From contig MTND01000026.1 in NCBI GenBank assembly GCA_002010305.1, positions 1 through 64,000 on the forward strand: a stretch of 64,000 nucleotides of DNA. Reading direction: 5' to 3'. The notes under the pieces are model-generated. The model searched no databases, was not told the origin of the DNA, and saw only the letters and a list, made by a program, of their open reading frames with translations. This DNA comes from Archaeoglobi archaeon JdFR-42. Lineage in GTDB: Archaea; Halobacteriota; Archaeoglobi; Archaeoglobales; JdFR-42. Both the position numbers and the translations under genes were made by a program. Numbering within the stretch: position 1 is the stretch's first letter; each line of letters starts with the position of its first letter. Below, piece after piece: positions 9,092 to 28,069 of the stretch.

Positions 9092-10942
9092 ATGACAGAA
9101 AATAGAAGATTTCCCAACCCATCTGATATAGAGACCCCTCCTGGTGCGGAAGGATGGGAGCGCATGTATCCATACTACTATAAATTCGACGATGGCAGTA
9201 ACAAAGAAAGATTCGAGTATGAAAACAAAGCACTATGGTTTTATGACGGGTTGCACTATCCAGAACCCCACTACCCTTTTGACCTATTCTGGGATGAGTG
9301 CTGGTTCATAGCATTATCTCAGTATAATTCAAGGATTTTTATGATGCCCCCAGCACTGGGAATTGACCATAGAATCCTGAATGGATATGTGTATATAACT
9401 CCGTTAGGTGTGTCAGACCCAGAGAAGATCGAAAAAAGAATTGAAATTTTCAAAAAAAGAGCAGGATATTATTACAAGAACTGGGATACCCTAGTCAAGC
9501 AGTGGGAAGAAAAGATGGAAGGGATCATTGATGACCTAGAAAATCTTGAGTTTCCAGATCTACCTGAGATGGAGGATGAATCAGTTGTATTTGAGGCCAA
9601 AGGGATCAGTTCAGGATACCTTCTGCTAAAAGAATATCAGAAGCTCATAGACCTTGGAATCCTGGCTTGGCAATACCATTTTGAGTTTCTTAACCTGGGT
9701 TATGCTGCCTACCTGACTTTTGTGGATTTCTGTATGAAAGCTTTCCCAGGCATCTCTATGCAGGTAGTTGCAAGGATGGTTTCTGGTTTAGATGTTATCC
9801 TATACAGACCTGATGAAGAACTCAGAAAGCTTGCCAAGCTTGCTATAAAGCTAGATCTTCAGGACCTTTTCAAAGGCACTGTGGAGACTGATGCAATACT
9901 AGCAGAAATGGAAAAAACAGAGAACGGGAAAAAATGGCTTGAAGAATTCGAAAAAGCAAAACACCCATGGTTTTATCTCTCTACCGGAACTGGATGGTAC
10001 CATACTGACAAGGCCTGGATAGATGATCTCGGAATCCCTCTTGCATCCATCAAGGGATACATCGAGATGCTTGAGAAGGGTGAAAATATTGACAGACCAC
10101 TGGATCAGATCAGGGAAGATAGAGAGAGAATAGCCAACGAATATAGAGAATTACTTGAAAACGAGGAAGATAAGAGGACTTTCGACGAATTGCTTGGTCT
10201 GGCCAAAGTGGTATTCCCGTATGTGGAGAATCATCTATTCTATGTCGAGCACTGGTTCCATACCGTATTCTGGCAGAAGGTAAGAGAACTTGCACAGATC
10301 ATCGCCAGATTTGGTGTAATAGAGGGTCCTGAAGATATATGGTTCCTAACAAGATTTGAGGTCGAACAGGTATTGTGGGATATCGTAACCTCATGGGCCA
10401 CAGGCACAAAACCAAGAGGTGCAATAGACTGGCCACCTGGAATAGAAGAAAGAAAGAAGATCTATCAGAAACTAAAGGAATGGAATCCTCCACCCGCGCT
10501 AGGAACCCCACCCGACGTGATTACAGAACCCTTCACCATAATGCTCTGGGGGATTACCACCGAACGAATGAAAGAATGGCTGGAGACAGCAGCGACAGGA
10601 GAGGGAGAGGTAACTGATGAAGTACGGGGATTCCCTGGTTCTCCAGGCATTGTAGAGGGGCCTGCCAGAGTTGCCAGAAATGTCGAAGAGATAGACCAAA
10701 TCCAAGAGGGAGAGATCCTAGTTGCACCAACCACATCACCCAGCTGGGCACCTGCTTTCACCAAGATAAAGGCCGCGGTAACGGATGTGGGTGGAATTAT
10801 GTGCCATGCAGCCATTGTCTGCAGGGAATACGGACTTCCAGCAGTAGTTGGGACGGGGCATGCAACTAAGCAGATAAAAACCGGTGATATCATAAAAGTA
10901 GATGGGAACAATGGAGTGGTAAAAATTATAAAAAGAGATTAA
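9092..10942 (+). CDS. PpsA-like phosphotransferase subunit 1 (PEP-synthase mobile-domain protein)
   Basis: A 616-residue protein. Its last ~85 residues form the swivelling phosphohistidine domain of PEP-utilising enzymes: GFPGSPGIVEGPARV, then GGIMCH572AAIVCREYG with the catalytic His, then PAVVGTG. The first ~500 residues are helix-rich and lack an ATP-binding domain. This split architecture and size match PpsA (about 70 kDa) of phenylphosphate synthase, which phosphorylates phenol with the beta and gamma phosphates of ATP. The ATP-binding half, PpsB-like, is the next gene. The same domain pair is fused in rifampin phosphotransferase. A paralogue with the same layout is at 20913-22691. The actual acceptor alcohol or phenol is unknown. 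GGAGG precedes the ATG by about eight bases. Confidence 0.8.
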   Translation: MTENRRFPNPSDIETPPGAEGWERMYPYYYKFDDGSNKERFEYENKALWFYDGLHYPEPHYPFDLFWDECWFIALSQYNSRIFMMPPALGIDHRILNGYVYITPLGVSDPEKIEKRIEIFKKRAGYYYKNWDTLVKQWEEKMEGIIDDLENLEFPDLPEMEDESVVFEAKGISSGYLLLKEYQKLIDLGILAWQYHFEFLNLGYAAYLTFVDFCMKAFPGISMQVVARMVSGLDVILYRPDEELRKLAKLAIKLDLQDLFKGTVETDAILAEMEKTENGKKWLEEFEKAKHPWFYLSTGTGWYHTDKAWIDDLGIPLASIKGYIEMLEKGENIDRPLDQIREDRERIANEYRELLENEEDKRTFDELLGLAKVVFPYVENHLFYVEHWFHTVFWQKVRELAQIIARFGVIEGPEDIWFLTRFEVEQVLWDIVTSWATGTKPRGAIDWPPGIEERKKIYQKLKEWNPPPALGTPPDVITEPFTIMLWGITTERMKEWLETAATGEGEVTDEVRGFPGSPGIVEGPARVARNVEEIDQIQEGEILVAPTTSPSWAPAFTKIKAAVTDVGGIMCHAAIVCREYGLPAVVGTGHATKQIKTGDIIKVDGNNGVVKIIKRD

Positions 10943-10967
10943 ATTTTTTTTTATTTCTTAACCCTTT

Positions 10968-10989
10968 ATCGTTAAAAAATTATTTATAG
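10968..10989 (+). promoter_or_regulatory. Promoter of the PpsB-like gene with CGTTA box
   Basis: ATCGTTAAAAAATTATTTATAG combines a CGTTA box, an A-tract BRE and TTTATA. The gene at 11050 starts about 60 bases downstream with GAGGAG as ribosome site. Its presence suggests that the PpsB-like gene can be transcribed apart from the PpsA-like gene before it, useful if PpsB serves two PpsA partners. Confidence 0.5.
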
Positions 10990-11049
10990 CCATACCCAGT
11001 AAAGTATGCTAATATCTGGCACAATATGTGTATATGAGGAGCTGAAATT

Positions 11050-12126
11050 ATGGTTAAATACGTGCTGTGGTTTGATGAAACAGGAAAAGATGCGGTAAAT
11101 CTGGTAGGGGGGAAAGTTGCAAGTCTTGGGGAGCTTATTAACGCTGGATTTCCAATCCCTCCTGGGTTTGCTGTAACTTCAGAGGCTTATAAGGAGTTCG
11201 TTCGATATAATAATCTGTCTGAGACTATCGGGAAAATGCTTGCACCCCTAAAAGATAATATGGATGATTATATACTTTTAGAAGAGACTAGCTTTCGAAT
11301 CAGGAACCTTATCGAATCTGCTGATATGCCCAAAGGAGTTGAGGAGGCTATTTCATCTGCGTATCACGAGCTGGAAGAGGAAACTGGTGTGGATAATCTT
11401 AGAGTGGCTGTTAGATCCAGTGCTACAGCAGAAGATATGGATGATGCAAGCTTTGCAGGACAGCATGACAGCTACTTGAACGTAAAAGGAGTGAATCAAG
11501 TCATCAATAAAGTTAAAAGATGTTGGTCAAGTCTATTCACTCCAAGGGTTCTTCCCTACAGGGTTAAACACGGAATAAAACACCATGAGGCTTTAATGGG
11601 CGTTGCAGTCCAAAAGATGGTTAATCCCAGAGCTGCAGGAGTAATGTTCACCCTCTACCCGACAACAGGAAGAAAGGATGTTGTGGTGATCGAAGCTGTT
11701 TGGGGGCTTGGGGAGGGGCTTGTAAGCGGATTGTGCACCCCTGATAATTACGCAGTTAATAAGATAACTTTTGATGTCGAAGAAGAAAATATCTCCTCAA
11801 AAGAGATGGAAATAGTCTATGATAAAAAACAGGGGAAAAACATCCATAATGAGGTTCCAAAAGAGAGGAGAAATGTATCCTGCCTCTCTAGAGAGGAACT
11901 TATTGAACTAACAAAAATAGGTAAAAAAATAGAAAAATATTATAGCAATCCCCAAGATATCGAGTGGGCAATTGACACGGATCTGAAATTCCCCGACAAT
12001 ATTTTTATTCTCCAGAGTCGTCCAGAAACAGTGTGGAGCAGAAAGAAAAAGGATCTCCCTAAACCTGAGGGAGGGGTTCTCGACATAATAGTTAGCAATA
12101 TAGTGACAGGGAAAAAGCTCGAATAA
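11050..12126 (+). CDS. PpsB-like ATP-binding subunit (PPDK N-terminal domain protein)
   Basis: A 358-residue pyruvate-phosphate-dikinase N-terminal (ATP-grasp) domain with no swivelling or PEP domain. Landmarks are LVGGKVASLGEL (residues 18-29), IPPGFAVTSEAY, the VRSSATAEDMDDASFAGQ block at 121-138 and the C-terminal QDIEWAID plus ILQSRPET. The length equals PpsB (about 40 kDa) of phenylphosphate synthase, which binds ATP and phosphorylates the His of PpsA. No PpsC-like CBS subunit lies nearby. It is the only such domain in the window and probably charges both PpsA-like proteins. It ends convergently with the flavoprotein gene at 12160. Confidence 0.85.
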   Translation: MVKYVLWFDETGKDAVNLVGGKVASLGELINAGFPIPPGFAVTSEAYKEFVRYNNLSETIGKMLAPLKDNMDDYILLEETSFRIRNLIESADMPKGVEEAISSAYHELEEETGVDNLRVAVRSSATAEDMDDASFAGQHDSYLNVKGVNQVINKVKRCWSSLFTPRVLPYRVKHGIKHHEALMGVAVQKMVNPRAAGVMFTLYPTTGRKDVVVIEAVWGLGEGLVSGLCTPDNYAVNKITFDVEEENISSKEMEIVYDKKQGKNIHNEVPKERRNVSCLSREELIELTKIGKKIEKYYSNPQDIEWAIDTDLKFPDNIFILQSRPETVWSRKKKDLPKPEGGVLDIIVSNIVTGKKLE

Positions 12127-12159: not shown

Positions 12160-13260
12160 CTACCAGAGCAAAGATCCGGCCATTTTTCCAAACTGTTCTG
12201 CATCGAATTTTCCAGAAATTCTCATTTCAGAGATTATTTTTTCACCCATTTCTTTTGACTTCAATATTTTTCCGGATATCATATCTAAATAAGTTCTATA
12301 GGTCTCTACAAGAGGTAACTCCCTATTGACGCTTTCCTCTATTGCCTTTACGGCACAGATAGCTGTAAGCAATGAAGGTCCTATTCCTTCGTTAAAAGCG
12401 TTTCTGAGCAAGACGGCGTCTCCAATAAGAACTATCCTTTTACTCCCAATTTTTATCTCCTTGAAACTCAGAGAAGTTCTATAACATCCCAGAGAGAACA
12501 TAAGTTTTTGGGGTTTAAACGAATAGTGTTTCTTAAGAAATCTCTCAAAATTGCTTATAGCCTCAATAATAGATCTGTCCGTATGATTTGTTCCAATTAT
12601 GATATATCCATCTTTAATCTGAAGAAACCCATACCTCAAAGAAAATGCTGGATTCGGAAAAAAATAGAAATAATTCATATTTACCCCACAGAAATCATCA
12701 TCCCCTTTTAGACAGATCTCACCTTCATAATGTCGCATTAGCACAAATCTCAATTTTTCCTCAAGATGTGGATTAAGATACCGTCTAACCGATGAGGTAT
12801 CACCATCAGCACCAATCAAAAACTTCGCTGATATTTTCTCTTTTTTATTGCCTTTTTTTACTTCGATTATTATTTCCTTATCTTTTTCTCCCATACCAAC
12901 AAGATTGGCTGAATCTATCAATTCTGCTCCAGCCTCGATGGATTTTCTGCCCATCCAGTAATCCAGGTTTTTTCTCCAGACATTGATAACCCCTGAAGAT
13001 ATTTCCAAAATCCCAGTTTTCCCCACCACTTTTAGACCATCATATTTTTGAGGAGTGCAGATAATTTCCTCAGGTAATTTTCCTATATACTTTTCAATGA
13101 TCTCTACGGCAGAGGGCCATAACATCCCGTTGCATGGTTTATGCCTTGGGATTTTTCTTTTTTCAATTATGAGAGTTTTAAAACCGTATTCAGCACATAA
13201 TAATCCGGTCATTGAGCCGGCCACTCCAGAACCGGCAATCACAACATCGAAATCACTCAT
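12160..13260 (-). CDS. FAD-dependent oxidoreductase of the geranylgeranyl reductase family
   Basis: A 366-residue flavoprotein. The N-terminal Rossmann motif GSGVAGSMTGLLCAEYG is followed by an acidic EKR. The family block PRHKPCNGMLWPSAVE is at about residues 38-53, GADGDTSSVRR in the middle, and RIVLIGDAVLLRNAFNEGIG near residue 280. Such enzymes reduce isolated or conjugated C=C bonds (archaeal lipid side chains) or act as monooxygenase-like or dehydrogenase flavoproteins. The gene starts eight bases inside the end of the aldehyde dehydrogenase gene, so they are one operon, which argues for a catabolic redox role more than lipid saturation. Substrate unknown. Confidence 0.75.
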   Translation of the reverse strand: MSDFDVVIAGSGVAGSMTGLLCAEYGFKTLIIEKRKIPRHKPCNGMLWPSAVEIIEKYIGKLPEEIICTPQKYDGLKVVGKTGILEISSGVINVWRKNLDYWMGRKSIEAGAELIDSANLVGMGEKDKEIIIEVKKGNKKEKISAKFLIGADGDTSSVRRYLNPHLEEKLRFVLMRHYEGEICLKGDDDFCGVNMNYFYFFPNPAFSLRYGFLQIKDGYIIIGTNHTDRSIIEAISNFERFLKKHYSFKPQKLMFSLGCYRTSLSFKEIKIGSKRIVLIGDAVLLRNAFNEGIGPSLLTAICAVKAIEESVNRELPLVETYRTYLDMISGKILKSKEMGEKIISEMRISGKFDAEQFGKMAGSLLW

Positions 13261-14708: not shown

Positions 14709-16397
14709 CTAAAAGGGCCTGTTAAAAGCCCTCATAACATTCTTCAACTTCTTTTGATACTCAAAATCTTTCAGCCCCAAGTACAGTTCCCGAAGATTAG
14801 GAGGATTCCACCATAAATCGATTCCTAAATCCTCAGCAACTACCCTTGCTGTGTTATAACCTGCAGCGCCGTGAAGTGCCCCTCCAGGATGATATGCAGC
14901 TCCTGTCACCCATAAATTCTTAATAGGGGTCCTGTACTGGGCCAGTTCTTCAGTAGGTCTACAATCGAATGTCTGTTCAGGTATAGGATCTAGTATCCCC
15001 CAATTCCCCCTTCTCATATTGACTAGCTTCTCCTCTACACCGAGAGGAGTATAGGTATTAATTCCTATTATGTTATCCCCACCAAGATTTGGTGCATATT
15101 CTCTCCAGCGATCCAAGCATATCTGGGCATATTCCTCTTCTAGTTCACGCCATTTGAAAGGTCCTCCATCTTTTAGGTTATATGGTGCAAACTGCCACGC
15201 AAAAGCAGTATGTTTTCCCGGTGGAGCTTGATTAGGATCGTGGACAGTAGGATGGGCAATTTCAAAAGCAGGTGATGACTCCGAGCCCGGCATTCCAGGA
15301 GGTATTCCATTTTCATTATCTCTCCAGTTCTTTTCCACATCCTCAACTGAATCATATCCTATCCATAGGGCAAGTGTATCGTTCACATCTGGATTATATT
15401 CAGCTGCTTTGTATTTTGGTGGGGTATTCAGCGCCAGATATAGTTGAAACAGAACAGCCCTCTTAGAGGGCCGTAACTTTTTAATTTTTTTGATAAGATC
15501 TGCGTCAAGGTATTTTTCATCTATAAACTTTAAAAAGGTTTGCCACGGATCTACTGCACTTACCACTCCCTTTCTAGCCATAATTCTGGTTCCATCAGCC
15601 AATTCCACACCTTTGGCCACTCCATCCTCTACGATTACTCTAGTAACATGGCCTCTCTGTATTGCAAAACCTCCGGCATAATGAAAAGCTTTAAAAAGGG
15701 CATGGGCCAATTGATGGGTTCCTCCTTTTATCATGGCTCTGGTCTTCTGGCGGGCAAAAAAGACTTTAAAGTTCCGTCCCCTTCTATCAGGCATATCATG
15801 CCATCCGGAACCGCCAGACCAGTCAGCCACAAGAGCTGCGTGTATCCTGGGTTCTTCAAAAGTTTCTCTAAGCCAATCTATAGGGGATGAAGTGATAAAT
15901 TGCAGATAAGTTTGTCCTAACTCACTTTTTTCCAAGAGGTCAACCCTTTCACTTTCTGGGATCGGTACACAGTAATCCTCCAGACCTATTAGACCTGGAT
16001 CAATGAGAGGGTAATGGGTCTCATAGAATCTTTTCCACGATTTTACATCCTCTGGAGATATGTCTCCAACACTCTTAAGTGTTTTCTTCAGATTATTGGC
16101 ATACAGTATGAGACATTTGTGATCGCTGAAAATAGTAGAAGTACTTACAGGAGGGGAAATTGTAAAGGCTCCAAACTTATATAGCTCAAGATCCCAGTAC
16201 CAAGGCCAGGAAGAGTGCCCGACAAAAAATGCATGGAGATTCATTAAAAACCCAGGAATTGGTTCTTCTGTGTCAGCTGCCCCCCCAACCTCATGCCTTC
16301 TTTCGACTACAACAACTTCAAGTCCTGATCTCACCAAATAATTCGCAGTGATCAGGCCATGATGGCCCCCCCCAACAACCACAATATCACATTCCAT
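14709..16397 (-). CDS. CrtI-like (phytoene desaturase family) FAD oxidoreductase 1
   Basis: A 562-residue NAD(P)/FAD-dependent oxidoreductase. The start has the dinucleotide motif VVVGGGHHGLITANYL followed by an acidic E in VERRHEVGG. The C-terminal FAD motif reads TGAAYHPGGALHGAAGYNTA at about 505-525, the usual CrtI-family ending. It is paralogous to the 541-residue protein at 19198: both share the early ERR..E.GG, the middle LGYDSV-type block and the C-terminal YRTP(I/V)K block. Carotenoid genes are absent, and CrtI relatives are known to oxidise many unsaturated substrates, so a role in dehydrogenating an activated ring or alkene is inferred. Its start overlaps the stop of the small gene upstream (ATGA). 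Confidence 0.8.
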   Translation of the reverse strand: MECDIVVVGGGHHGLITANYLVRSGLEVVVVERRHEVGGAADTEEPIPGFLMNLHAFFVGHSSWPWYWDLELYKFGAFTISPPVSTSTIFSDHKCLILYANNLKKTLKSVGDISPEDVKSWKRFYETHYPLIDPGLIGLEDYCVPIPESERVDLLEKSELGQTYLQFITSSPIDWLRETFEEPRIHAALVADWSGGSGWHDMPDRRGRNFKVFFARQKTRAMIKGGTHQLAHALFKAFHYAGGFAIQRGHVTRVIVEDGVAKGVELADGTRIMARKGVVSAVDPWQTFLKFIDEKYLDADLIKKIKKLRPSKRAVLFQLYLALNTPPKYKAAEYNPDVNDTLALWIGYDSVEDVEKNWRDNENGIPPGMPGSESSPAFEIAHPTVHDPNQAPPGKHTAFAWQFAPYNLKDGGPFKWRELEEEYAQICLDRWREYAPNLGGDNIIGINTYTPLGVEEKLVNMRRGNWGILDPIPEQTFDCRPTEELAQYRTPIKNLWVTGAAYHPGGALHGAAGYNTARVVAEDLGIDLWWNPPNLRELYLGLKDFEYQKKLKNVMRAFNRPF

Positions 16398-16696
16398 TAC
16401 ATCACCTCACGATCTGATTGTTTTTTAAAAGCCATCATGAGATAGGTAAAAAACAGCTTCATCATCTGTCGGCTCAATCCAACTTTTATAAGTGATGGAA
16501 CATCTTCAGGTTCAAGAACTATTTCCACATCCCAGTGGAAAGGCTCAACAGCCTTTGCAGCGATTCTCAGAAGTGATTCTTCATTATTATTTTCTAGTTG
16601 ATTACCTTTTTTTACCACTGATTCCCCTTCTGGAGCGATTCTTTCGATGTATGCTCTCAACCGGGTATTTCCTAACCCTGTGGATCTAATGTACAT
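16397..16696 (-). CDS. Small protein coupled to CrtI-like oxidoreductase
   Basis: A protein of 99 residues with no family I can recognise. The sequence is charged with a hydrophobic segment near the end (LSRQMMKLFFTYLMMAF). The ATG at 16696 is chosen because GAGAGGAG lies eight bases before it; an in-frame TTG 18 bases upstream falls before that site. The stop overlaps the start of the CrtI-like gene by four bases, so the two are translationally coupled and the product may be a small partner or chaperone of the flavoprotein. Its own promoter is at 16741-16764. Confidence 0.6.
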   Translation of the reverse strand: MYIRSTGLGNTRLRAYIERIAPEGESVVKKGNQLENNNEESLLRIAAKAVEPFHWDVEIVLEPEDVPSLIKVGLSRQMMKLFFTYLMMAFKKQSDREVM

Positions 16697-16740
16697 TTTA
16701 TCTACTCCTCTCAATCATTCTATTAAAGAGATGGAGGAGA

Positions 16741-16764
16741 GATTATAAATGAGTTAGTAACGGG
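16741..16764 (-). promoter_or_regulatory. Promoter with CCGTTAC box for the CrtI-like 1 operon
   Basis: On the minus strand CCCGTTACTAAC is followed directly by TCATTTATAATC. The GTTAGTAAC core is an inverted repeat with a single central base. The TATA element is about 45-55 bases before the small gene's ATG. The remaining gap to 17007 contains no supported gene; one inverted repeat (CCACCT/AGGTGG) spans about 16891-16938. Confidence 0.5.
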
Positions 16765-17239: not shown

Positions 17240-18097
17240 TTATTTCTTAACCCTATGATTCTTACCAACAGGACAGACTTCAACACATCTAAAACATTGA
17301 GCTGAAATCTCCAGAGAATTCGCAATAGCTGAAACATAGCGAGTAAATGTAGAGCCAAAGATCATCATTTTACGCTTTTCGGGATCGTTTTCATTAATTA
17401 TCTCAAAAAGAGCCTTCTGAAAACCAATTCTACTCCAATTAGCCCTGGGATAGCATAATTGGCGATTGTACTGCATCCACTTTATACGTCCGTTCTCAAG
17501 CTCTCCTGAAAGACATTCAGGACATGCCCTCAGACAGGGAGTTTTTTGAACTTTTTCCCACATTTTTACACAGGTGGGATGAGGACATACTGGTTTATTC
17601 AAAGGGGAGTCTGGCTGTAAAGGAGCACTTGTTAAAACCAGATAGTAGTAGAGAAAACCATATTTCGGGTTTAATATGATGCCTCCTGCGAGTGATCTGG
17701 TACCCAGCCCTGCGAGTTCAGCACATAGTTTTATGCTAATTCCAGGATCCCATACGCCATTGGCTAGAGAATATGATGCATAAGGTACTGCATAATAACC
17801 TAATTTATCCTCAATAAACTCGGCTACCTTAAATGACAATTCCTTGACTTCTTTGAGTTTACGACCCCCAATAACGCCTACCCACCTTGGATCGGTACAC
17901 TTCCAAGCTCCTGCAAGCATTTTGCCTGCTCCAACTACAATAATGCTTTTTACTTTAGGAAAAAAATCTGACGGACGGTGTCCCTCAGGTGCATATTTTG
18001 CAACTTCTTGGGGAGATGCAACTCCAACAACCAGAGCTCCAGCTCCAAATGCATAATCTTCAATCTTCCTTTTTAATTCATCTAATCTCGTATCCAA
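17240..18097 (-). CDS. QueG/reductive-dehalogenase-like 4Fe-4S protein
   Basis: A 285-residue protein. The first ~190 residues resemble the DUF1730/cobalamin-type domain of epoxyqueuosine reductase and its relatives (GALVVGVAS..., VKSIIVVGAGK, later GIILNPKYGFLYYYLVLTSAPL). Cys groups follow: CPHPTC, then CLRACPEC, and near the C-terminus CFRCVEVCPVGK, suggesting one or two 4Fe-4S clusters. The QueG HEAT repeats are missing, so a tRNA role is unlikely; corrinoid- or Fe-S-dependent reduction is possible. It is transcribed from a promoter with a CCGTTAC box and is followed by a tiny HTH gene. Its role in the island is not known. Confidence 0.6.
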   Translation of the reverse strand: MDTRLDELKRKIEDYAFGAGALVVGVASPQEVAKYAPEGHRPSDFFPKVKSIIVVGAGKMLAGAWKCTDPRWVGVIGGRKLKEVKELSFKVAEFIEDKLGYYAVPYASYSLANGVWDPGISIKLCAELAGLGTRSLAGGIILNPKYGFLYYYLVLTSAPLQPDSPLNKPVCPHPTCVKMWEKVQKTPCLRACPECLSGELENGRIKWMQYNRQLCYPRANWSRIGFQKALFEIINENDPEKRKMMIFGSTFTRYVSAIANSLEISAQCFRCVEVCPVGKNHRVKK

Positions 18098-19106: not shown

Positions 19107-19118
19107 CTTGGTGTTATT

Positions 19119-19140: not shown

Positions 19141-19144
19141 TTAT

Positions 19145-19197: not shown

Positions 19198-20823
19198 ATG
19201 GAAGAGTACGATGCCGTAATCATAGGAGCTGGGCATAACGGTCTTATTCTTGGGGCTTATCTAGCTAAATCTGGTCAGAAAGTTCTTGTTCTAGAAAGAA
19301 GGAATGAAATCGGTGGAGGTTTATGCACTGAAGAGGTTACGGTCCCAGATTTTCTCCATAATACCCACGCCACCTTTCATATGATGGTGGATTACATGCC
19401 TGCAATACATGACCTGGAACTGGATAAATATGGGATTCAATTTACCCTTCCGCCCGTTCAGGTTGCCATGCTCTATAAGGACTCTAAAAGTGTTGTACTA
19501 TACAATGACCTAGGCAAATCAGTGAAATCCATAGAGAAAATCTCTTTAAAAGATGCCCGGTCCTATGAACAAGAGTATAATAAAGCAAAAGAGTTCGTCC
19601 AGGAACTGATAATGCCCCTAACATACTTGCCACCAATGCCACCTTTCGAACAAGTAGAGTTACTCAGTAAAACTGATCTGGGAAGAGAGTTACTAGAACT
19701 CGGAGAATACAGCCCTTTAGATTACGTAACAGAGCATTTTGAGGACGAGAGGATTAGAGCATTGATGCTATATCTGATATGTTACTGGGGACTGGACCCA
19801 GATATAACGGGACTTGGATTTCTCATACCACTCTACTTAGAGAGGGCTACCAATTATAGGATCCTACTGGGTGGGTCTCACAGATTCACCGGAGCTTTAT
19901 CAAAAATTATCCACCATAATGGTGGAAAAGTAGCAGAACTCTGTGAGGTCCGAGAGATTATTCTCGAGAATGGCGAGGCTATAGGTGTTCATTTAAAAGA
20001 GGATTCGGCTTATTTAAATAAAAAAATTCTGGCGAAAAAAGCTGTAGCCAGTTCACTCAACCCCATTCAGACTTTCACAGAATTAATCGAGAAAAGTGTA
20101 CTGAGCGAAAATTTCCTTAAAGAGATTAACCGGTGGGAGTGGGAGGAGTGGAGCCTGTTTGGAGTTCATCTAGCACTTAACGATCCTCCAAGGTACATTC
20201 ACGGAGATACAGAGCCTCACGTAAATGAGGCTTTGAGGTGCATTATTGGCTACGACTCAGTTGACGAAGTAATGTCGGCTTGGAGAGATATACGAAATGG
20301 GGTACTCCCGGAGCCAGCTGGCTCTTGCTCATGCTTTACCCTTTTTGATAGTTCAATGGCCCCATACAACAAACATGTGGGATTCTTTTCCCAATTTGCC
20401 CCTTATGAACTGAATGGAGGTGTTGATTTATGGTATAAGATAAAGGATGAATATATGGAACGTTGTATAGAGAAATGGAAAACGTATGCCCCTAACATCA
20501 CAAAACCCAACATAATTGGAAAATCATGCCACAGCCCACTGGATATTGAAAATAGAATCTCTACCATGCGCAGGGGGTCTATAAAGCATGGAAAATACAT
20601 TCCTATGCAGATGGGATATTTCCGACCTCACCCAGAAATTTCTGGATATCGAACACCAGTAAAAAAACTATATGTATGCGGATCATCAGCTTATCCGGGA
20701 GGTCTAGTTCTTGGAGCTCCTGGATATAATGCTGCAAACGTTATTATGGAAGATCTGGGAGTAGAAAAGTGGTGGAGTTATCCTGAGTACATAGAAAGAG
20801 CCAGGAGGAAGTATGGGTTCTAA
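19198..20823 (+). CDS. CrtI-like (phytoene desaturase family) FAD oxidoreductase 2
   Basis: A 541-residue paralogue of the 562-residue flavoprotein at 14709. The dinucleotide-binding start reads AVIIGAGHNGLILGAYLAKSG with acidic VLERRNEIGGG. The C-terminal motif is CGSSAYPGGLVLGAPGYNAA, then MEDLGVEKWW. Like its paralogue it is longer than typical bacterial CrtI (about 490-510). It is the first gene of an operon with the second PpsA-like subunit (89 bases downstream) and probably the SDR and HD genes. A flavin-dependent dehydrogenation of the substrate or product of that phosphotransferase is inferred; no carotenoid genes are present. Confidence 0.8.
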   Translation: MEEYDAVIIGAGHNGLILGAYLAKSGQKVLVLERRNEIGGGLCTEEVTVPDFLHNTHATFHMMVDYMPAIHDLELDKYGIQFTLPPVQVAMLYKDSKSVVLYNDLGKSVKSIEKISLKDARSYEQEYNKAKEFVQELIMPLTYLPPMPPFEQVELLSKTDLGRELLELGEYSPLDYVTEHFEDERIRALMLYLICYWGLDPDITGLGFLIPLYLERATNYRILLGGSHRFTGALSKIIHHNGGKVAELCEVREIILENGEAIGVHLKEDSAYLNKKILAKKAVASSLNPIQTFTELIEKSVLSENFLKEINRWEWEEWSLFGVHLALNDPPRYIHGDTEPHVNEALRCIIGYDSVDEVMSAWRDIRNGVLPEPAGSCSCFTLFDSSMAPYNKHVGFFSQFAPYELNGGVDLWYKIKDEYMERCIEKWKTYAPNITKPNIIGKSCHSPLDIENRISTMRRGSIKHGKYIPMQMGYFRPHPEISGYRTPVKKLYVCGSSAYPGGLVLGAPGYNAANVIMEDLGVEKWWSYPEYIERARRKYGF

Positions 20824-20912: not shown

Positions 20913-22691
20913 ATGGGTCTCATAAAATTTGAAAGTCCAGATGAATTGGAAGAAAAAGTAAAAAAATACTTAGGAAAAGATTACGATACGGCTTATGAAT
21001 ATATACCCTATTACTTCAGGTTCCAGAAAAAAGATGAAAACCGATTACATTTTCAGGATTCCGTTCACTGGCCAGTCCCTCTAAAACCTATTGACATTTT
21101 GATAATACAGGTAATGCAATGGACTTACTGCATGCCCCAGCATCTATTGCATAAATTTCCCACAAGTAGAGGGGCCGACTGGAGAATTCTGAATGGATAC
21201 GTATATCTGAGCCCGATGGAAGTAAGTGATCAGGATGAAATACAGGAAAGACTGGAGGCCTTTATGGAAAGTGCCCGTAAGTACTATTCAAACTGGAACG
21301 AATTATGGGATAAAAGACTGAAAGAGGAAATTCTACCCAGAATTGAGAGAGTTCAAAATATAGATTTTGAAAATATGCCTGCAGAGTATCAAATGATTGA
21401 AGACTTCGATACTATGATTCACGATCTGTTTAAAGTCTGGGAAATACACTTTGAATTTCTTGGTCTGGGATATGCTGCATACGTCACTTTGATGAATGAA
21501 GCAAAAGGGTTCTTTCCAGGTATGGAAGACAGGATTATAACCAAATTCTGTCAGGGACTTGGAACAATAATGATGGAGACAGATAGAAAATTCTTGGACC
21601 TTGCCAAACTGGCAATAGAACTGGGAGTAGAAGACATTCTAGTTGAAGGGATGCCAGAAGATATCATAACAGAGCTTGAAAAAAGCAATGCTGGAAAGAA
21701 ATGGTTGGATGAATTTAACAGAGTTATGGAAGAGTGGGGTAACAGACAGGACGTTGGTCTATATTTCGGATATATAAGCTGGAGAGAGAATCCAATTGCT
21801 CCAATCTCCATCATACGAAACTATATAGTCAAATTGAGAAGAGGGGAGGAGCCACTTCCTCCAAAAGAGGCTTTAGAGGCGGAAAGAGAGAGATTGATTC
21901 AGGAATACGTGGATCTTCTTGATTCGGAGGAAGACAAGAAAAGATTTAGAGAAGTAGTACAGCTTGCCCAGCTAGTATATCCCTATGTTGAGGACCATAA
22001 TTTCTACATAGACCAGAAATTCGATGTTCTTGTTAGACTGAAACTACTTGAGATAGGAAGGAGATTCACAAAAAAAGGTTACATCGACGAACCGGAGGAT
22101 ATCAGCTTCCTGACACCGGATGAAATACGACATGCTCTCCTAGATATGATTTTCGATCATGGAGGTAGACTGTATTCGTATTCAGGAGAGGGTTTGAAAG
22201 ATTTAATCCAGAAAAGAAAGAAAGTGTATGAACTCCAGAAACAGTGGACACCTCCAAAACTCCTGGGTGTTGCTCCTGACAAAATAACTGAGCCCCTCTT
22301 CGTTCAGCTATGGGGAATAACCAAAGAAGCAATCGAGATCTGGACTTCACCAGATAAAATCGAATCTGCCGATAAGTTAAAAGGATTTGCTGCATCACCA
22401 GGGATTGCAGAAGGAGTTGCAAGAGTTCTTAATTCACCTGAAGAGATCTCAAAGTTGAGGGAAGGAGAGATCCTGGTATGTAGCTGCACAACTCCTGCTT
22501 GGACATCAGTGTTCCCAACCGTAAAGGCGGTAGTAACGGATATAGGCGGACTGATGTCTCATGCAGCCATAGTCTCTAGGGAGTATGGGATACCAGCAGT
22601 GGTTGGTACCCTCACTGCAACAAAAACCATCCAATCGGGCCAGAAGATACGGGTAAATGGAGATCAAGGTATTGTTGAGATATTAGAATAA
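20913..22691 (+). CDS. PpsA-like phosphotransferase subunit 2
   Basis: A 592-residue paralogue of the protein at 9092. The shared N-terminal block RILNGYVYLSPMEVSD (residues 91-106) and the C-terminal mobile domain GGLMSH550AAIVSREYG followed by PAVVGT identify the same architecture. H550 is the expected phosphorylated residue. No ATP-binding domain is attached and no second PpsB-like gene is near, so it presumably shares the subunit at 11050. GGAGGTGA lies eight bases before the ATG. Pairing with a CrtI-like gene and an SDR suggests it phosphorylates a hydroxyl group at one step of a multi-step pathway; the substrate is unknown. Two such PpsA-like genes with one PpsB-like gene is unusual. 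Confidence 0.8.
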   Translation: MGLIKFESPDELEEKVKKYLGKDYDTAYEYIPYYFRFQKKDENRLHFQDSVHWPVPLKPIDILIIQVMQWTYCMPQHLLHKFPTSRGADWRILNGYVYLSPMEVSDQDEIQERLEAFMESARKYYSNWNELWDKRLKEEILPRIERVQNIDFENMPAEYQMIEDFDTMIHDLFKVWEIHFEFLGLGYAAYVTLMNEAKGFFPGMEDRIITKFCQGLGTIMMETDRKFLDLAKLAIELGVEDILVEGMPEDIITELEKSNAGKKWLDEFNRVMEEWGNRQDVGLYFGYISWRENPIAPISIIRNYIVKLRRGEEPLPPKEALEAERERLIQEYVDLLDSEEDKKRFREVVQLAQLVYPYVEDHNFYIDQKFDVLVRLKLLEIGRRFTKKGYIDEPEDISFLTPDEIRHALLDMIFDHGGRLYSYSGEGLKDLIQKRKKVYELQKQWTPPKLLGVAPDKITEPLFVQLWGITKEAIEIWTSPDKIESADKLKGFAASPGIAEGVARVLNSPEEISKLREGEILVCSCTTPAWTSVFPTVKAVVTDIGGLMSHAAIVSREYGIPAVVGTLTATKTIQSGQKIRVNGDQGIVEILE

Positions 22692-22729: not shown

Positions 22730-23524
22730 ATGTCCAGCGATTCAAAAAACCCTTTTGATTCACCATCTTTGAGGTTGAAGGGAAAAGTTGCACTAGTTAC
22801 TGGAGGAGCCGGTGGGATTGGGGGGAGTATCTGTCTCAGGTTTGCAGAAGAGGGTGCCAGAGTAGTTGTAGTTGATTTAGACATTCTTGCTGCGTCGGAT
22901 TTAACAAAAACCATAGGGGAAATGGGATACGAATCCCTAGCCTTAAAAACTGATGTTTCCAACGATGCTGATGTCCAGAATATGGTTAAAAAAGTAATTG
23001 ATACTTTTGGAACCGTCGACATTCTGGTAAACAACGCTGCTATTTATTCCACTCTCTCTCTTTTACCATGTGAGGAGATTGAAGAGGACGAATGGGATAA
23101 AGTGTTCAAAGTAAACGTGAAAGGAGTGTGGTTATGCTCTAAAGCGGTCATTCCTATTATGAAAGCAAAAAGATATGGAAAAATCATAAACATAGCATCT
23201 GGCGCTGTGTGGAGTGCCCCAGAGCATATGGCACATTACGTGGCTTCTAAGTCAGCTATAATAGGTTTGACACGAGTGATGGCAAGAGAGCTTGGAGATT
23301 TCAATATTCAGGTTAATGCTGTTGCTCCCGGATTGATTATGACCAATGCCAGTAAAAACCTTCATCCAGAGTCCTTTATCAAAAGATCCTATGGTAGAAA
23401 ATCCATTAAGAGGATAGCCCATCCAATGGATGTGGTTGGACTTGTTCTCTTTCTAGCGAGTGACGATAGCAATTATATTACGGGACAAACTGTAGTAGTA
23501 GATGGAGGAGGAGTATTACGATAA
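22730..23524 (+). CDS. Short-chain dehydrogenase/reductase
   Basis: A 264-residue classical SDR. It has TGGAGGIGGS (residues 24-33) with VVVDLD indicating NAD preference, the NNAA motif, a catalytic Ser in NIASGAVW, and Tyr-x3-Lys in HYVASKSA; PGLIMT and the C-terminal ITGQTVVVDGGG are also typical. It interconverts an alcohol and a ketone using NAD(H). It lies 38 bases after the second PpsA-like gene and is followed by the HD gene, so it is likely part of the same catabolic unit. The fatty-acid reductase FabG family is the nearest general resemblance, but archaea lack that pathway. Confidence 0.9.
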   Translation: MSSDSKNPFDSPSLRLKGKVALVTGGAGGIGGSICLRFAEEGARVVVVDLDILAASDLTKTIGEMGYESLALKTDVSNDADVQNMVKKVIDTFGTVDILVNNAAIYSTLSLLPCEEIEEDEWDKVFKVNVKGVWLCSKAVIPIMKAKRYGKIINIASGAVWSAPEHMAHYVASKSAIIGLTRVMARELGDFNIQVNAVAPGLIMTNASKNLHPESFIKRSYGRKSIKRIAHPMDVVGLVLFLASDDSNYITGQTVVVDGGGVLR

Positions 23525-23597: not shown

Positions 23598-24212
23598 GTG
23601 GAAAAGACATACATAATGATTTGGAATGAGGCTCAGAAATACCTGATTCAGGGCAGGTGGTTTGACTTATCCCACACCTTAGTTGCCCTGGATTTTGTTA
23701 AACGATTAAATATACTGGAAAAGGGGGATGAGACCATAACCATACCGGCAATCATGCTCCATGATGTTGGGTATTCTGCCTTTTCCAAAATAAAGGATCT
23801 TGTTATTCTGACTACGGCTCCATGGATTCCTCCATTTTCAAAGGAATTGAAAAAAGCCCATCTCATCGAAGGGGCAAGAATCTCGGAACAAATACTACAG
23901 AAAGTTAAATACGACGCCATTAAATCTGAAGAGATAGTTAAGATAGTAGAAACACATGAAAACGAGGATGATAGTAGGTTTAAGAGAAACATTAACCAAG
24001 CTATTGTGGCAGATGCGGATGCTCTAACTCGAGTAACTGATATGGGGATACGGATAATAACTGAAGAATACGGACTGAAAGAAGAGGACGTTGTGGCAAA
24101 CTTTATTAAACATCTTGACAGATGGTTCCTGACGAAATCCGCCAGGAATATGGCTGATGAAGAGTTGAGGAAAGTATCGGCATTTATTAAATACACCGGG
24201 ATGTGGAAATGA
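23598..24212 (+). CDS. HD-domain phosphohydrolase
   Basis: A 204-residue HD-superfamily protein. The first His is in DLSHTLVAL, HD is in MLHDVGYSAF (about residues 53-62), a third His is in THENEDD, and a final Asp is in VADADALTR, the full metal-binding set. Such enzymes remove phosphate from small molecules or nucleotides. The start is GTG at 23598 with GGTGAGA five bases upstream. Placed in the unit that carries a phosphotransferase subunit, it could dephosphorylate the phosphorylated intermediate; a nucleotide substrate is the alternative. Confidence 0.75.
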   Translation: MEKTYIMIWNEAQKYLIQGRWFDLSHTLVALDFVKRLNILEKGDETITIPAIMLHDVGYSAFSKIKDLVILTTAPWIPPFSKELKKAHLIEGARISEQILQKVKYDAIKSEEIVKIVETHENEDDSRFKRNINQAIVADADALTRVTDMGIRIITEEYGLKEEDVVANFIKHLDRWFLTKSARNMADEELRKVSAFIKYTGMWK

Positions 24213-24419: not shown

Positions 24420-25232
24420 TCATTGATCTTTCCACCCATTCAAGAACAACAGACGAATCATTCTCACAATATCTCCGTTAAAAACCCACAGAGCACAGTC
24501 ATACTTCCCCCTTTCCTGAAGAGTACCTTCTGCTGGTATTAGCAACATTTCCTGACTATCTCTGATGTACAACCTTGCCGGGGGATTCTCTATCTCTTTC
24601 CACACACCCCATCCCTGGACTACCTCTCTGATGTCTTCTGGAACTGCTGAAAAAGGCCCCAATATCTGCAATGCAACTCCCCTTGAAACTGTATTCTCAA
24701 ATTCACTCTGTGCTTGATAAACCATCCTGACCAATTCATTTCTTGTAGCAATTATCAAAAGCTCTTTATCAGTTTTCTTCAACAGGTCCTTTATCACATT
24801 AATGATGGTATGACGCCCCGATATCTCAAAGGAGAGACTCGGTAGCTCATGTCCTCTGTGAGGATACTTGCTCTCATTCAGTACATTCAAGAACCTCTCT
24901 CTGATTCTGAGGGCCTCATGGAAAATCTCTTCTTGTTTCCTTGCCAGTATAGAAGTTGCAACTTCTGGAGGAACTGGATAAAATCGTTTTGGCTTTTGAC
25001 TGGATAAAAAAATAAGACCTTTATTTTCAAGGGATTCCAAAATATTGTAAACCCTCTGTCTTGACAACACCAACTGGTTGCTGAGTTCCCTTGCTGTTGC
25101 ACCAGGATTTTTAATAAGGGCTAGATAAACCAAAGATTCAGATTCGGATAGTCCAAGTAAGGTTAGATCATCCTTTAAAACCTTCTTAACCTCGATTTTG
25201 TTCAATTTCACAACCTCATCATCCACATACAA
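24420..25232 (-). CDS. TrmB-type transcriptional regulator 2
   Basis: A 270-residue sister of the regulator at 18291. It has a winged HTH (LGLSESESLVYLALIKNPG, then LVLSRQRVYNILESLE), an LLIIATRNELVRMVY block, and a C-terminal region with GTLQERGKYDCALWVFN. It is divergent to the UbiD operon, with 116 bases between starts, and is the natural candidate to regulate that operon. The two regulators bracket the 19-24 kb unit. The effector is unknown; the C-terminal domains have diverged more than the HTH, as expected for sensors of different metabolites. Confidence 0.85.
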   Translation of the reverse strand: MYVDDEVVKLNKIEVKKVLKDDLTLLGLSESESLVYLALIKNPGATARELSNQLVLSRQRVYNILESLENKGLIFLSSQKPKRFYPVPPEVATSILARKQEEIFHEALRIRERFLNVLNESKYPHRGHELPSLSFEISGRHTIINVIKDLLKKTDKELLIIATRNELVRMVYQAQSEFENTVSRGVALQILGPFSAVPEDIREVVQGWGVWKEIENPPARLYIRDSQEMLLIPAEGTLQERGKYDCALWVFNGDIVRMIRLLFLNGWKDQ

Positions 25233-25319: not shown

Positions 25320-25348
25320 CTACAATATTTAATTATGAAGGTGATAGT

Positions 25349-26779
25349 ATGCCTGAAAAAATGCAAGATCTCAGAGATTTTATTAAAATCCTTGAAAAAG
25401 AGGGTGAGTTAAAGAGAATAACAGCTGAAGTAGACTGGAATCTTGAGTTATCTCATATTGCAAAACTCAATGAAGAGAGAAAAGGTCCTGCACTGTTATT
25501 CGAGAATATTAAAGGATATGAGACCCCCGTTTTTACTAGTGCATATACTAAAACTTCTAGAGTGGCTCTAGCTCTCGGTATGGATAAAACCTCTACCATT
25601 GTAGATATCGCCAGAAACTGGTCTGATAAAGTTACAGAGAAATTAATCCCACCGGAGATCGTGAAGAATGGCCCAATCTTTGAAAACACACTTGAAGGAG
25701 ATGATGTTGATCTTCTGAAATTTCCTGTACCACAATTGTATCCTATGGATGGTGGAAGGTATTTTGGGACTACAGCTTATCTGATCACAAAAGATCCTGA
25801 AACAGACTTCATAAATTTGGGTGTATACAGAATGCAGGTACTGGACAACAGAAGTCTTGGTCTCCAGCTATTAAAGGGAAAAGATGCTGAAGTTATGTTA
25901 AACAAGTATTGGGAGATTGGGGAGCCCATGCCTGCTGCTGCAGTTATTGGTGGAAGTCCTCTCGGATTTCTTGTTGGAAGTACTCTGGTGCCTTATGGGA
26001 CCAGCGAATATGAAGTAATTGGATCTTTGAGTGGTGAGCCAGTAGAGGTTATAAAAAGTGACCTTACCGGATTACTAATTCCTGCTCAAGCAGAAATTGT
26101 TGTGGAAGGATTTGTAGATCCCAATCCAGAGAATTTCAGAGAGGAGGGTCCTTTTGGAGAATACACCGGATATTATTCAGGAAAGGCCAAAGAAGAATTT
26201 CCCAAACCCTGGCTGAAAGTAGAAAGAATCCTCCATAGAAACAAACCAATTTTCTGGGCTACTACAGTTGGAAGGCCTGTTACCGATACCCACATGGTTC
26301 AGTCTATCAATAGAACTGCCGAGTTGTGGACCCAGTTAAAACGACTGGGAGTTCCAGGTATCCAGTCGGTATACATTCCTCCTGAATCAACTGGAAGATT
26401 CTGGGCTATAATCTCGATTAAACAAAATTATCCTGGACATGGAAGACATGCAGGAATGGCTGTCTTTGCTACTGTCTTGGGAAATTACGGAGTTAAAGGA
26501 GTGATAGTGGTGGACGAGGATATTAGGGCCGACGATATTGAGAGAGTTTTATGGGCTATATCTGTAAGATATAACCCCATTGAAGATACAGAATTGATCA
26601 AAAAAGGTCGGTCTACCCCGTTAGATCCATCTTTGCCCATGGAAAAGCGTTATATCGTCTCCAGAATACTGATAGATGCAACAACCCCTCACGAATGGGA
26701 GCGAAAACCGATCCTGATAGAAATGGATAAAGTGACTATGGAAAAGGTTCTCGAAAGATGGGATGAATTCGGTTTGTGA
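25349..26779 (+). CDS. UbiD-family prenylated-FMN (de)carboxylase
   Basis: A 476-residue UbiD protein. By comparison with the fungal Fdc1 family, N156-x4-R161 (NLGVYR) corresponds to the metal/prFMN Asn and the catalytic Arg, and E266-GPFG-E271 to the catalytic Glu pair; PAQAEIVVEG supplies a metal Glu. The enzyme reversibly decarboxylates aromatic or unsaturated acids in the cytoplasm. A UbiX gene for the cofactor is at 31586. The downstream HAD gene is notable because phenylphosphate carboxylase contains UbiD-type alpha/beta subunits and a HAD-type delta subunit; together with PpsA/PpsB-like genes this suggests carboxylation of a phosphorylated ring. A menaquinone-type UbiD role is the main alternative. 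Confidence 0.88.
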   Translation: MPEKMQDLRDFIKILEKEGELKRITAEVDWNLELSHIAKLNEERKGPALLFENIKGYETPVFTSAYTKTSRVALALGMDKTSTIVDIARNWSDKVTEKLIPPEIVKNGPIFENTLEGDDVDLLKFPVPQLYPMDGGRYFGTTAYLITKDPETDFINLGVYRMQVLDNRSLGLQLLKGKDAEVMLNKYWEIGEPMPAAAVIGGSPLGFLVGSTLVPYGTSEYEVIGSLSGEPVEVIKSDLTGLLIPAQAEIVVEGFVDPNPENFREEGPFGEYTGYYSGKAKEEFPKPWLKVERILHRNKPIFWATTVGRPVTDTHMVQSINRTAELWTQLKRLGVPGIQSVYIPPESTGRFWAIISIKQNYPGHGRHAGMAVFATVLGNYGVKGVIVVDEDIRADDIERVLWAISVRYNPIEDTELIKKGRSTPLDPSLPMEKRYIVSRILIDATTPHEWERKPILIEMDKVTMEKVLERWDEFGL

Positions 26780-27327
26780 GAGGAATGGATGTCATTGAAA
26801 TGGTGGACGTGGTAACTGAAAACAACGAAATAGTAACAAAAAAATCAAGAAAAGACGTTCATAATACAGGAGAGTGGCACAGAGGTGTCCACATATTTTT
26901 ATTTGACGGTAAAGGCAATCTTCTTGTACAGATAAGGGGCAATAAAAAAACAAAATTCCCTAGAAAGTACGACTGTTCTGTATCTGAACACCTTATTGCC
27001 GGAGAAAGTTTCCTAAATGGAGCTAAACGGGGTTTGAAAGAAGAGCTTGGTATTGAGGGAGTAGTACTTAAAAAAATTGTACGTTTCAGAATGAACTATG
27101 ATGAAGGAGATAACATGATTTCAGAGTTATATATAGGTAAACTGAATGAAGAGAGGAGCCACAGAACTTTTTCTCTAGGAGAAGAGGTACAAAATATACA
27201 ATTCATGGATATTCGGAAACTAAAAGAATTGATGGAAAATAGACCAGATGATTTTACTCCATGGTTGAGGGAACTGCTGAAGTGGTTTCTCTCACTTCCT
27301 TCTGAAGTAGAAGAAATGGAGGAATAA
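26776..27327 (+). CDS. Nudix hydrolase, IDI/YfcD-like
   Basis: A 183-residue Nudix protein with start overlapping the UbiD stop. The Nudix box is slightly altered: GE-x7-RGLKEELGI, with Gly in place of the first Glu of the REUxEE core. The N-terminal half (GEWHRGVHIFLFDGKGNLL, then FPRKYDCSVSEHL) matches the isopentenyl-diphosphate-isomerase-like/YfcD group. Either diphosphate hydrolysis or allylic isomerisation might be its activity. UbiX needs dimethylallyl (di)phosphate for prFMN synthesis, so a role in prenyl-phosphate supply for UbiD is an attractive but untested idea. The start could be GTG at 26776 or ATG at 26785. Confidence 0.7.
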   Translation: MRGMDVIEMVDVVTENNEIVTKKSRKDVHNTGEWHRGVHIFLFDGKGNLLVQIRGNKKTKFPRKYDCSVSEHLIAGESFLNGAKRGLKEELGIEGVVLKKIVRFRMNYDEGDNMISELYIGKLNEERSHRTFSLGEEVQNIQFMDIRKLKELMENRPDDFTPWLRELLKWFLSLPSEVEEMEE

Positions 27328-27328
27328 T

Positions 27329-28069
27329 ATGAAACACATGAATGCCAGAACGAATCTTAAAGATGTCAGATGGATTGGATTTGATTATGGGCAGTGTTTA
27401 ATGGATTCCAGCAGGAGGAAAATAGAATACTGGATGGCTGTTGTGTTTATCGATCTTGAAAAAGAGAGACCGGGTATAATAGATGAAAAGGTAAAGCTAT
27501 ACAAAGAACTGATGGACAAATATGGTAGCTATCCAAGATTGCAGGAAAAAGGGAGAGATGAAATTCACTCCCTGATATTAGAGGACGATTCCTGTCTGAT
27601 ACGAAAATATTATGATTCCGAGTTAAAATTTCTTAAACCTGCAGAAGGAGTCGTAGACGCTTTGAAGTACCTTAAAAAACTTGGAAAAGAGATCAGTATT
27701 GTTACCGATATGGGGAGTGGATACGCTCTTGAAGTTATCAAAAATTTTCTGAATACCTACGATCTCAGAGGATTTTTTACAGATATTATTTCTCCTGCAG
27801 GTGCTATCAGACAAGATGGAAGTCTTGATGAGTATTACAAAGGGTCCAACAAAGAAGATGGTAGTATTTTCGACAGGCTTTCAGAAGAGTTGAAAAACAA
27901 GGGAATAAACCCATCTCAGGCAGCCATAATTGGAGACCACCCCATCAAAGATGTTTATCAATCCAAAAAGAGGGGGTTTATTACCATCCATTACACCCCA
28001 AAAAAGAGAGAGACGACAGAAGCGGATTATACAATAACTCATTTTTCCCAGCTAAAAGATATTTTTTGA
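27329..28069 (+). CDS. HAD-superfamily hydrolase
   Basis: A 246-residue HAD protein starting two bases after the Nudix gene. Motif I is GFD19YG with nucleophile D19, but the usual second Asp (D+2) is Gly. Motif II is IVTDMGSG, motif III probably a Lys in the following region, and motif IV IIGDHPIKD. Loss of the general-acid Asp would weaken ordinary phosphatase activity. In bacterial phenylphosphate carboxylase the small delta subunit is a HAD-type protein, and this one sits in the UbiD operon, so a similar accessory role is inferred. It could also be a phosphatase for phosphorylated intermediates. Confidence 0.75.
   Translation: MKHMNARTNLKDVRWIGFDYGQCLMDSSRRKIEYWMAVVFIDLEKERPGIIDEKVKLYKELMDKYGSYPRLQEKGRDEIHSLILEDDSCLIRKYYDSELKFLKPAEGVVDALKYLKKLGKEISIVTDMGSGYALEVIKNFLNTYDLRGFFTDIISPAGAIRQDGSLDEYYKGSNKEDGSIFDRLSEELKNKGINPSQAAIIGDHPIKDVYQSKKRGFITIHYTPKKRETTEADYTITHFSQLKDIF

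Follow-up and report, generated by a model that had tools for sequence, protein, structure and literature searches.

We describe two adjoining catabolic systems in a 64,000-nucleotide stretch of contig MTND01000026.1 of Archaeoglobi archaeon JdFR-42 (the window; positions below count from its first letter). The island at 9092–28069, together with genes downstream of it, consists of a phenol module (PpsA1, PpsB, TrmB2, UbiD, HAD and UbiX) and a second module (GGR, ALDH, Crt1, X105, TrmB1, Crt2, PpsA2, SDR and HD), in which a second dikinase subunit is accompanied by two flavoproteins of the CrtI fold, Crt1 and Crt2. We see an even chance that the second module is an oxygen-independent, Cre-like pathway, which would oxidize the side chain of a phosphorylated alkylphenol and feed 4-hydroxybenzoate to the phenol pathway. 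A bolder proposal is that Crt1, Crt2 and X105 together make up a new flavoenzyme complex, one that hydroxylates C–H bonds of phosphorylated alkylphenols independently of oxygen, within an anaerobic Cre-type pathway of archaea and several bacterial classes; it is tentative, and we judge it somewhat more likely wrong than right.

An earlier, sequence-only reading of the window had listed two PpsA-like subunits with a His domain only, one ATP-binding subunit, a CrtI-like pair, aldehyde dehydrogenase (ALDH), SDR, HD and GGR-like proteins, two TrmB regulators, and UbiD, Nudix and HAD proteins, all of which lie where it placed them. Its proposal of an anaerobic pathway that depends on phosphorylation is supported; there are two kinase alpha subunits, which probably serve two substrates. 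It overlooked the conserved 105-residue gene X105 (16397–16714), and the protein that it called QueG-like matched no Pfam or NCBIfam model and can be described just as cysteine-rich and of Fe-S type. The second module and the genes among it are as follows, with identities to the orthologues in G041, a genome of another archaeal family, where these exist.

12160..13260, minus strand: GGR-like flavoprotein; TIGR02032 below cut-off; ~30% relatives in bacterial Crt clusters L164, L186 and L189
13253..14695, minus strand: aldehyde dehydrogenase, predicted to convert aldehyde to acid; NCBIfam ALDH models; 62% orthologue adjoining PpsA2 in G041
14709..16397, minus strand: Crt1, CrtI-fold flavoprotein with a flavin adenine dinucleotide (FAD)-binding N-terminus; 77% orthologue in G041
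16397..16714, minus strand: X105, small conserved protein of 105 residues; homologues beside or between Crt genes in archaea and bacteria; 50% orthologue in G041
16717..16763, no strand: upstream region of the X105/Crt1/ALDH/GGR operon; elements in common with the TrmB1/Crt2 intergenic region, 19116–19154
17240..18097, minus strand: cysteine-rich Fe-S-type protein; 71% orthologue in G041
18291..19106, minus strand: TrmB1, putative regulator of the second module; PF01978; 48% orthologue adjoining Crt2 in G041
19198..20823, plus strand: Crt2, FAD flavoprotein with a predicted CrtI fold; 70% orthologue in G041, ~45% in bacteria
20913..22691, plus strand: PpsA2, dikinase alpha subunit of the second module; motif GGLMSHAAI intact; 65% orthologue in G041
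22730..23524, plus strand: SDR, predicted to convert alcohol to aldehyde; PF13561; 44–48% to the SDR of bacterial Crt operons
23598..24212, plus strand: HD protein, putative CreD-like phosphohydrolase; PF01966; H, HD, H and D motif residues retained

The second module recurs as a unit. In G041 the genes stand in the order Crt1-X105-QueG-TrmB1-Crt2-PpsA2-ALDH-ZnADH-Crt3, with identities of 48–77%, given only where a window orthologue exists. This synteny runs across two contigs with an overlap of 386 bp (98.4%), the second of which carries the ALDH, a zinc alcohol dehydrogenase (Zn-ADH) and another Crt. Crt2-like proteins at this level occur in 4 of the 394 genomes of the archaeal phylum, and the Crt unit is therefore sporadic within it. 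Crt2 homologues were found in three of the 80 bacterial PpsA loci collected first, where Crt2-X105-Crt1-SDR-PpsA2-PpsB2 is followed by proteins of 219 and 106 residues, an HD protein and either AOR or an aldehyde oxidoreductase, adjoining a PpsABC-UbiD phenol cluster (one of the three loci ends at a contig end). Whole-class searches placed the Crt2 protein in 12/42 genomes of one bacterial class and 9/46 of another, as well as in G437. In anaerobic bacteria the recurrent order is Crt2-X105-Crt1-(phosphatase or GGR)-SDR-PpsA2-PpsB2, and in many cases the next gene encodes an aldehyde oxidoreductase of the tungsten or molybdenum type. PpsA is present in 17 of the 18 bacterial Crt loci on long enough contigs, a count that leaves out loci cut by contig ends (four in the first class, one in the second). 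Many of the Crt loci have no phenol cluster nearby. Two archaeal families and numerous genomes of bacteria have the Crt-PpsA set, and the linkage, which the sequence-only reading had expected to see conserved, is thus far beyond chance. One bacterial Crt cluster has two PpsA paralogues close together (L187:1344-5722), and UPF0261 proteins recur in bacterial phenol and Crt clusters (L011:8674-9912, L185, L188 and L189).

The phylogeny of the kinase alpha subunits separates the two modules. PpsA2 shares one side of a split (support 100/99) with the bacterial Crt-linked PpsA proteins, and the phenol, Cre and Hpe kinases lie on the other; in this tree PpsA2 groups neither with the PpsA of phenol degraders nor within the branch of CreH-position proteins. 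The tree is unrooted and the stem of bacterial PpsA2 very long, so the split is moderate evidence. Neither subunit grouped with phosphoenolpyruvate (PEP) synthase or rifampin phosphotransferase, whereas such a grouping would, according to the sequence-only reading, have refuted its proposal: PpsA1 falls in the bacterial PpsA clade and PpsA2 with the other CrtI-linked paralogues. PpsA1 and PpsA2 each have the PEP-utilizers His domain and no ATP-grasp domain, and PpsB has the PPDK_N ATP-grasp domain only, so that the single-chain layout of PEP synthase or rifampin phosphotransferase is absent.

The positions around the Crt pair are filled by enzymes of constant function and varied family. Alcohol oxidation is assigned to the SDR in most loci and to Zn-ADH in G041. 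For the aldehyde, archaea have ALDH, G149 and, by similarity, G402 and G407 have tungsten AOR, and G151 and, by similarity, G401 and G405 have a homologue of the Desulfovibrio aldehyde oxidoreductase 1sij (604 bits in G151). Removal of phosphate would fall to the HD protein or, in the second bacterial class, to an ARMT1-like phosphatase (PF01937, confirmed by Pfam in two loci and assigned by N-terminal similarity in the others). That unrelated enzymes of the same function fill these slots suggests that the sequence of reactions is what is conserved. The same slots are seen in the aerobic cre-type clusters of Rhodococcus (P450, CreI, CreH, SDR, ferredoxin, reductase, HD and ALDH), in which an oxygenase takes the place of Crt. 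The window cluster has the HD phosphohydrolase, SDR alcohol dehydrogenase and ALDH, as in Cre, its SDR being 43% identical to the CreG-position SDR and its ALDH 35% identical to the CreC-position ALDH of Rhodococcus; the HD proteins of the bacterial operon are 34–38% identical to the CreD-position protein. A second aerobic counterpart with these slots, on a plasmid of the haloarchaeon Natrinema (L084:5816-14957), encodes Rieske alpha and beta subunits as its oxygenase, Zn-ADH, ALDH, a metallophosphoesterase, PpsA and PpsB; it resembles a Cre pathway built on a Rieske enzyme.

The two Crt transcription units of the window may be controlled together. Upstream of its first gene, the X105-Crt1-ALDH-GGR operon has one 11-bp and one 10-bp block that also occur between TrmB1 and Crt2, and two common blocks of at least 10 bp arose in 1 of 3000 dinucleotide shuffles. 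These blocks support joint control of both units, presumably by TrmB1.

Both Crt proteins have the CrtI fold, for Crt2 as modelled, and conserve the FAD-binding GxGxxG motif. The predicted structure of Crt2 (predicted local distance difference test score, pLDDT, 88.9) best matches gamma-carotenoid desaturase (4rep) and phytoene desaturase (4dgk), at 17–18% identity. CrtI enzymes abstract hydride from allylic carbons. No cut-off of a curated carotenoid model was reached by either protein: Crt1 and Crt2 score 205 and 234 bits against the CrtO cut-off of 1000, and lower with the other carotenoid models. X105 homologues, found in all three archaeal and bacterial groups, have an invariant M, S-T-G-L-G, T, P, W and D; X105 matched nothing in Pfam or the PDB, and its predicted structure is poor (pLDDT 57). 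Two plasmids of Novosphingobium, an aerobic sphingomonad (L199:5178-7808 and L200:5178-7811), encode an SDR, a single CrtI-like protein (~30% identity) and a protein of 77–78 residues whose C-terminal half resembles X105 in layout; this set is possibly a distant cousin of the Crt module.

The first module consists of PpsA1, PpsB, TrmB2, UbiD, HAD and UbiX, and from its sequences we identify it as an ordinary Archaeoglobales phenol module, with phenylphosphate synthase and carboxylase. Its genes and their neighbours are:

9092..10942, plus strand: PpsA1, predicted phenylphosphate synthase alpha subunit (His domain); 57–64% to PpsA of Desulfobacterota and Aromatoleum; placed by the tree
11050..12126, plus strand: PpsB, ATP-grasp subunit; PF01326, 375 bits; 63% to the PpsB of the related archaeon G001
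24420..25232, minus strand: TrmB2, regulator of the phenol module; 36–42% orthologues in related archaea, where they stand between PpsA and UbiD
25349..26779, plus strand: UbiD-type phenylphosphate carboxylase beta subunit; TIGR02724 over cut-off; 70–79% in related archaeal phenol clusters
26776..27327, plus strand: Nudix protein; PF00293; none seen in related archaeal phenol clusters
27329..28069, plus strand: HAD protein, conserved UbiD companion; 52–59% adjoining UbiD in 6 related archaeal clusters
29746..30996, plus strand: PaaK-type aryl-coenzyme A (CoA) ligase, candidate 4-hydroxybenzoate-CoA ligase; PF14535 and PF00501; a 38% relative adjoins a Crt pair in L190
31586..32152, minus strand: UbiX, flavin prenyltransferase for UbiD; TIGR00421 over cut-off

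UbiD scores 571 bits with the model of the phenylphosphate carboxylase beta subunit (PpcB; cut-off 469), and PpsB-PpsA-TrmB-UbiD-HAD-CoA ligase-UbiX is the usual order in related Archaeoglobales genomes. The sequence-only reading had taken UbiD and HAD without PpsC as a misfit to the phenol scheme, an objection that falls away: the PpsC-less order is standard in this archaeal order, where no CBS-domain PpsC lies near the phenol clusters of related archaea (no genome-wide PpsC search was made in the host), and PpsC merely stimulates the enzyme, phenylphosphate being formed without it (PMC6114531), so that the lack of PpsC does not speak against a phenol pathway. PpsA1 retains the catalytic His motif and lies inside the bacterial PpsA clade (support 100/98), unlike the PpsA version of related archaea, and was therefore probably acquired from bacteria. 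The kinase subunits are thus of mixed origin, PpsA1 being of bacterial type and PpsB nearest to an archaeal PpsB. There is no second PpsB in the island, the only region covered by this check (no genome-wide search was made), and PpsB is presumably common to PpsA1 and PpsA2.

The source genome (2.15 Mb, 42 contigs, completeness 99.6%) encodes a bzd-type benzoyl-CoA reductase cluster, with subunits O and Q above the model cut-off; no DsrA exceeded its cut-off in it. PF00391 is found in three proteins of the whole genome, PpsA1, PpsA2 and one of 754 residues, the length of a PEP synthase. The GC (guanine plus cytosine) content marks no boundary of the island. On its 5′ side, window positions 121–8919 encode a PhsA-like molybdopterin oxidoreductase accompanied by Fe-S and NrfD-like subunits; an alpha/beta hydrolase and parts of a branched-chain-type ABC transporter are also encoded there, and LIV transporters like these border the phenol clusters of related archaea.

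Taken together, these assignments suggest the following scheme. In the phenol module, PpsA1 and PpsB would phosphorylate phenol, and UbiD, HAD and UbiX would carboxylate the product to 4-hydroxybenzoate. In the second, PpsA2 and the common PpsB would phosphorylate a substituted phenol, probably cresol or another alkylphenol; Crt1 and Crt2 with X105 would take hydride from the benzylic carbon of the side chain, with oxygen supplied from water to give the alcohol; the HD protein would cleave off the phosphate; and SDR and ALDH would convert the alcohol to the aldehyde and then the acid. The resulting hydroxybenzoate would enter the route of CoA ligase and benzoyl-CoA reductase. Homology argues for the kinase subunits, the phosphohydrolase family, the alcohol and aldehyde dehydrogenase families, the UbiD carboxylase and the bzd-type benzoyl-CoA reductase of the genome; from gene context alone we infer what the substrate is, what the Crt proteins and X105 do, and in which order dephosphorylation and oxidation take place. 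The sequence-only reading had suggested a hydroxylated cyclic or unsaturated substrate; the recurrence of alcohol- and aldehyde-oxidizing enzymes in the cluster favours narrowing this to an alkyl-substituted phenol.

Several observations weigh against this scheme. The known flavin cresol hydroxylases work through a quinone methide, which is out of reach for a phosphorylated phenol; Crt would therefore have to abstract hydride in another, CrtI-like way and pass it to some electron acceptor, or might act on the free phenol instead. No biochemistry was found for any protein of a Crt pair, and the open-licence literature held no report linking a phytoene dehydrogenase or desaturase to phenylphosphate or cresol. 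PpsA2 of archaea shares only ~30% identity with the Crt-linked PpsA2 of bacteria, and long branches lie between them; the HD protein of the window is 36% identical to that of the bacterial operon and just 26% to the CreD-position HD; and the scheme gives the GGR-like and QueG-like genes no role. The host encodes short COX1-like proteins of 157 and 391 residues, so a complete absence of oxygen metabolism is not proven. Crt pairs without PpsA on the contig occur in archaea (G001, G028 and contig C141 of G041) and in the bacterium G485. The archaeal ones have as neighbours Zn-ADH, AOR and a PaaK-type ligase, or hydantoinase-type (acetophenone-carboxylase-like) subunits, once also with Zn-ADH, which is again alcohol, aldehyde and ketone chemistry and counts in favour of the scheme.

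A tandem Crt pair of G001 is directly followed by Fae, the formaldehyde-activating enzyme (L104:877-2998). The hydantoinase A/B-type subunits adjoin Crt pairs in L114, with a UbiD paralogue, and in L116, with the Zn-ADH, an arrangement that is perhaps an alkylphenol-to-ketone variant.

Four other explanations of the second module were weighed. The strongest of them, although unlikely, has the Crt pair acting on the free alkylphenol through a quinone methide and water, with phosphorylation serving for trapping, tolerance or a later step; flavin chemistry on p-alkylphenols is known and some PpsA-less Crt pairs sit with alcohol and aldehyde enzymes, but the operon conserves the kinase and, in many loci, the phosphatase too, which resembles Cre, a pathway that begins with phosphorylation. 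Next in rank, and also improbable, PpsA2 would supply the neighbouring UbiD with another substrate for carboxylation (o- or m-cresol, catechol or aniline), with Crt acting elsewhere or downstream. UbiD is indeed nearby in the window, one PpsB would serve both PpsA proteins, and in D. anilini a second synthase, also PpsAB-like, is devoted to aniline, with UbiD subunits common to its clusters (PMC7500099). Yet the bacterial Crt-PpsA2 operons often stand on UbiD-less stretches, with SDR, phosphatase and aldehyde oxidoreductase, and PpsA2 is 40% identical to PpsA1, whereas the aniline subunit PasA is only ~27% identical to PpsA. An aniline kinase was rejected for PpsA2 because PasA is farther from PpsA than PpsA2 is.

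We give rather little credit, and third place, to a saturation, desaturation or dearomatization of a cyclic or terpenoid phenol (for example, a thymol-like one), in which phosphate would be an anchor or leaving group. Desaturases and saturases are both known in the CrtI and GGR families, Crt operons repeatedly contain GGR-like proteins and the fold of Crt2 matches carotenoid desaturases; this reading would leave unexplained the recurrent alcohol and aldehyde slots and the resemblance to Cre-like clusters that have a P450 or Rieske enzyme. Very improbable is isoprenoid, quinone or carotenoid metabolism, with CrtI-, GGR- and IPP (isopentenyl diphosphate)-isomerase-like Nudix proteins acting on a prenyl chain and the kinases incidental: it has the superfamily resemblance of Crt1, Crt2, GGR and Nudix in its favour, but their scores are far under the carotenoid and GGR cut-offs, the Nudix gene is absent from related archaeal clusters and the kinases are conserved members of the operon. 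A carotenoid or lipid pathway was rejected on these low model scores. Benzene activation by a flavoprotein was also set aside, as recent candidates are glycolate-oxidase-like and not CrtI-like, and Gmet_0231/0232 are a zinc oxidoreductase and a 281-residue hypothetical protein.

The analysis tells the plain phenol module apart from a second pathway in Archaeoglobales-type archaea. Under anaerobic conditions, alkylphenols are known to be activated by quinone-methide flavocytochromes or by fumarate addition, and alkylbenzenes can be hydroxylated by molybdenum enzymes. If the side-chain oxidation proposed here is correct, a flavoprotein pair in the position of the P450 would be a further activation strategy, found on both the archaeal and the bacterial side; proteins now named just phytoene-dehydrogenase-like, and the unannotated X105 family, would thereby gain a function that can be tested; should the Crt step be shown, the Crt enzyme itself would be new.

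Compared with known systems, the first module shares PpsA1, PpsB, UbiD, HAD, UbiX and TrmB2 with phenylphosphate synthase and carboxylase (PpsAB and PpcB), including the Archaeoglobales version, from whose cluster it differs in the bacterial-type PpsA1, in the missing gene for a 524-residue CoA ligase between HAD and UbiX, and in the added Nudix gene. The Crt pair resembles the CrtI, CrtO and CrtP carotenoid oxidoreductases in fold and FAD motif; these enzymes carry out allylic or terminal-methyl C–H oxidation. Unlike them, the pair is ~15–18% identical to solved members, falls below the curated cut-offs, and stands in tandem with X105 in a context of aromatic catabolism. HpeHI belongs to the dikinase family that phosphorylates phenols through a conserved His (PMC12167813), and in the hydroxyphenylethanone pathway, as proposed for the window, a substituted phenol is first phosphorylated by a two-component dikinase and a phosphatase acts later in its breakdown; the window module differs in that it is without biotin carboxylase and has alcohol dehydrogenase, ALDH and CrtI-like enzymes. 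The Cre pathway for 4-cresol in Corynebacterium and Rhodococcus comprises the phosphate synthase CreHI, the P450 system CreJEF, the phosphohydrolase CreD, the alcohol dehydrogenase CreG and the aldehyde dehydrogenase CreC (PMC7764795), and it likewise unites a two-component dikinase, HD, SDR and ALDH in one cluster. No P450 (CreJ with ferredoxin and reductase) was found among the cluster proteins scanned, and in its place the window and bacterial modules have the CrtI-like pair and X105. Their hosts are anaerobic lineages, their regulators are TrmB or LysR where Cre has IclR, and in the window PpsB is apparently common with the phenol kinase.

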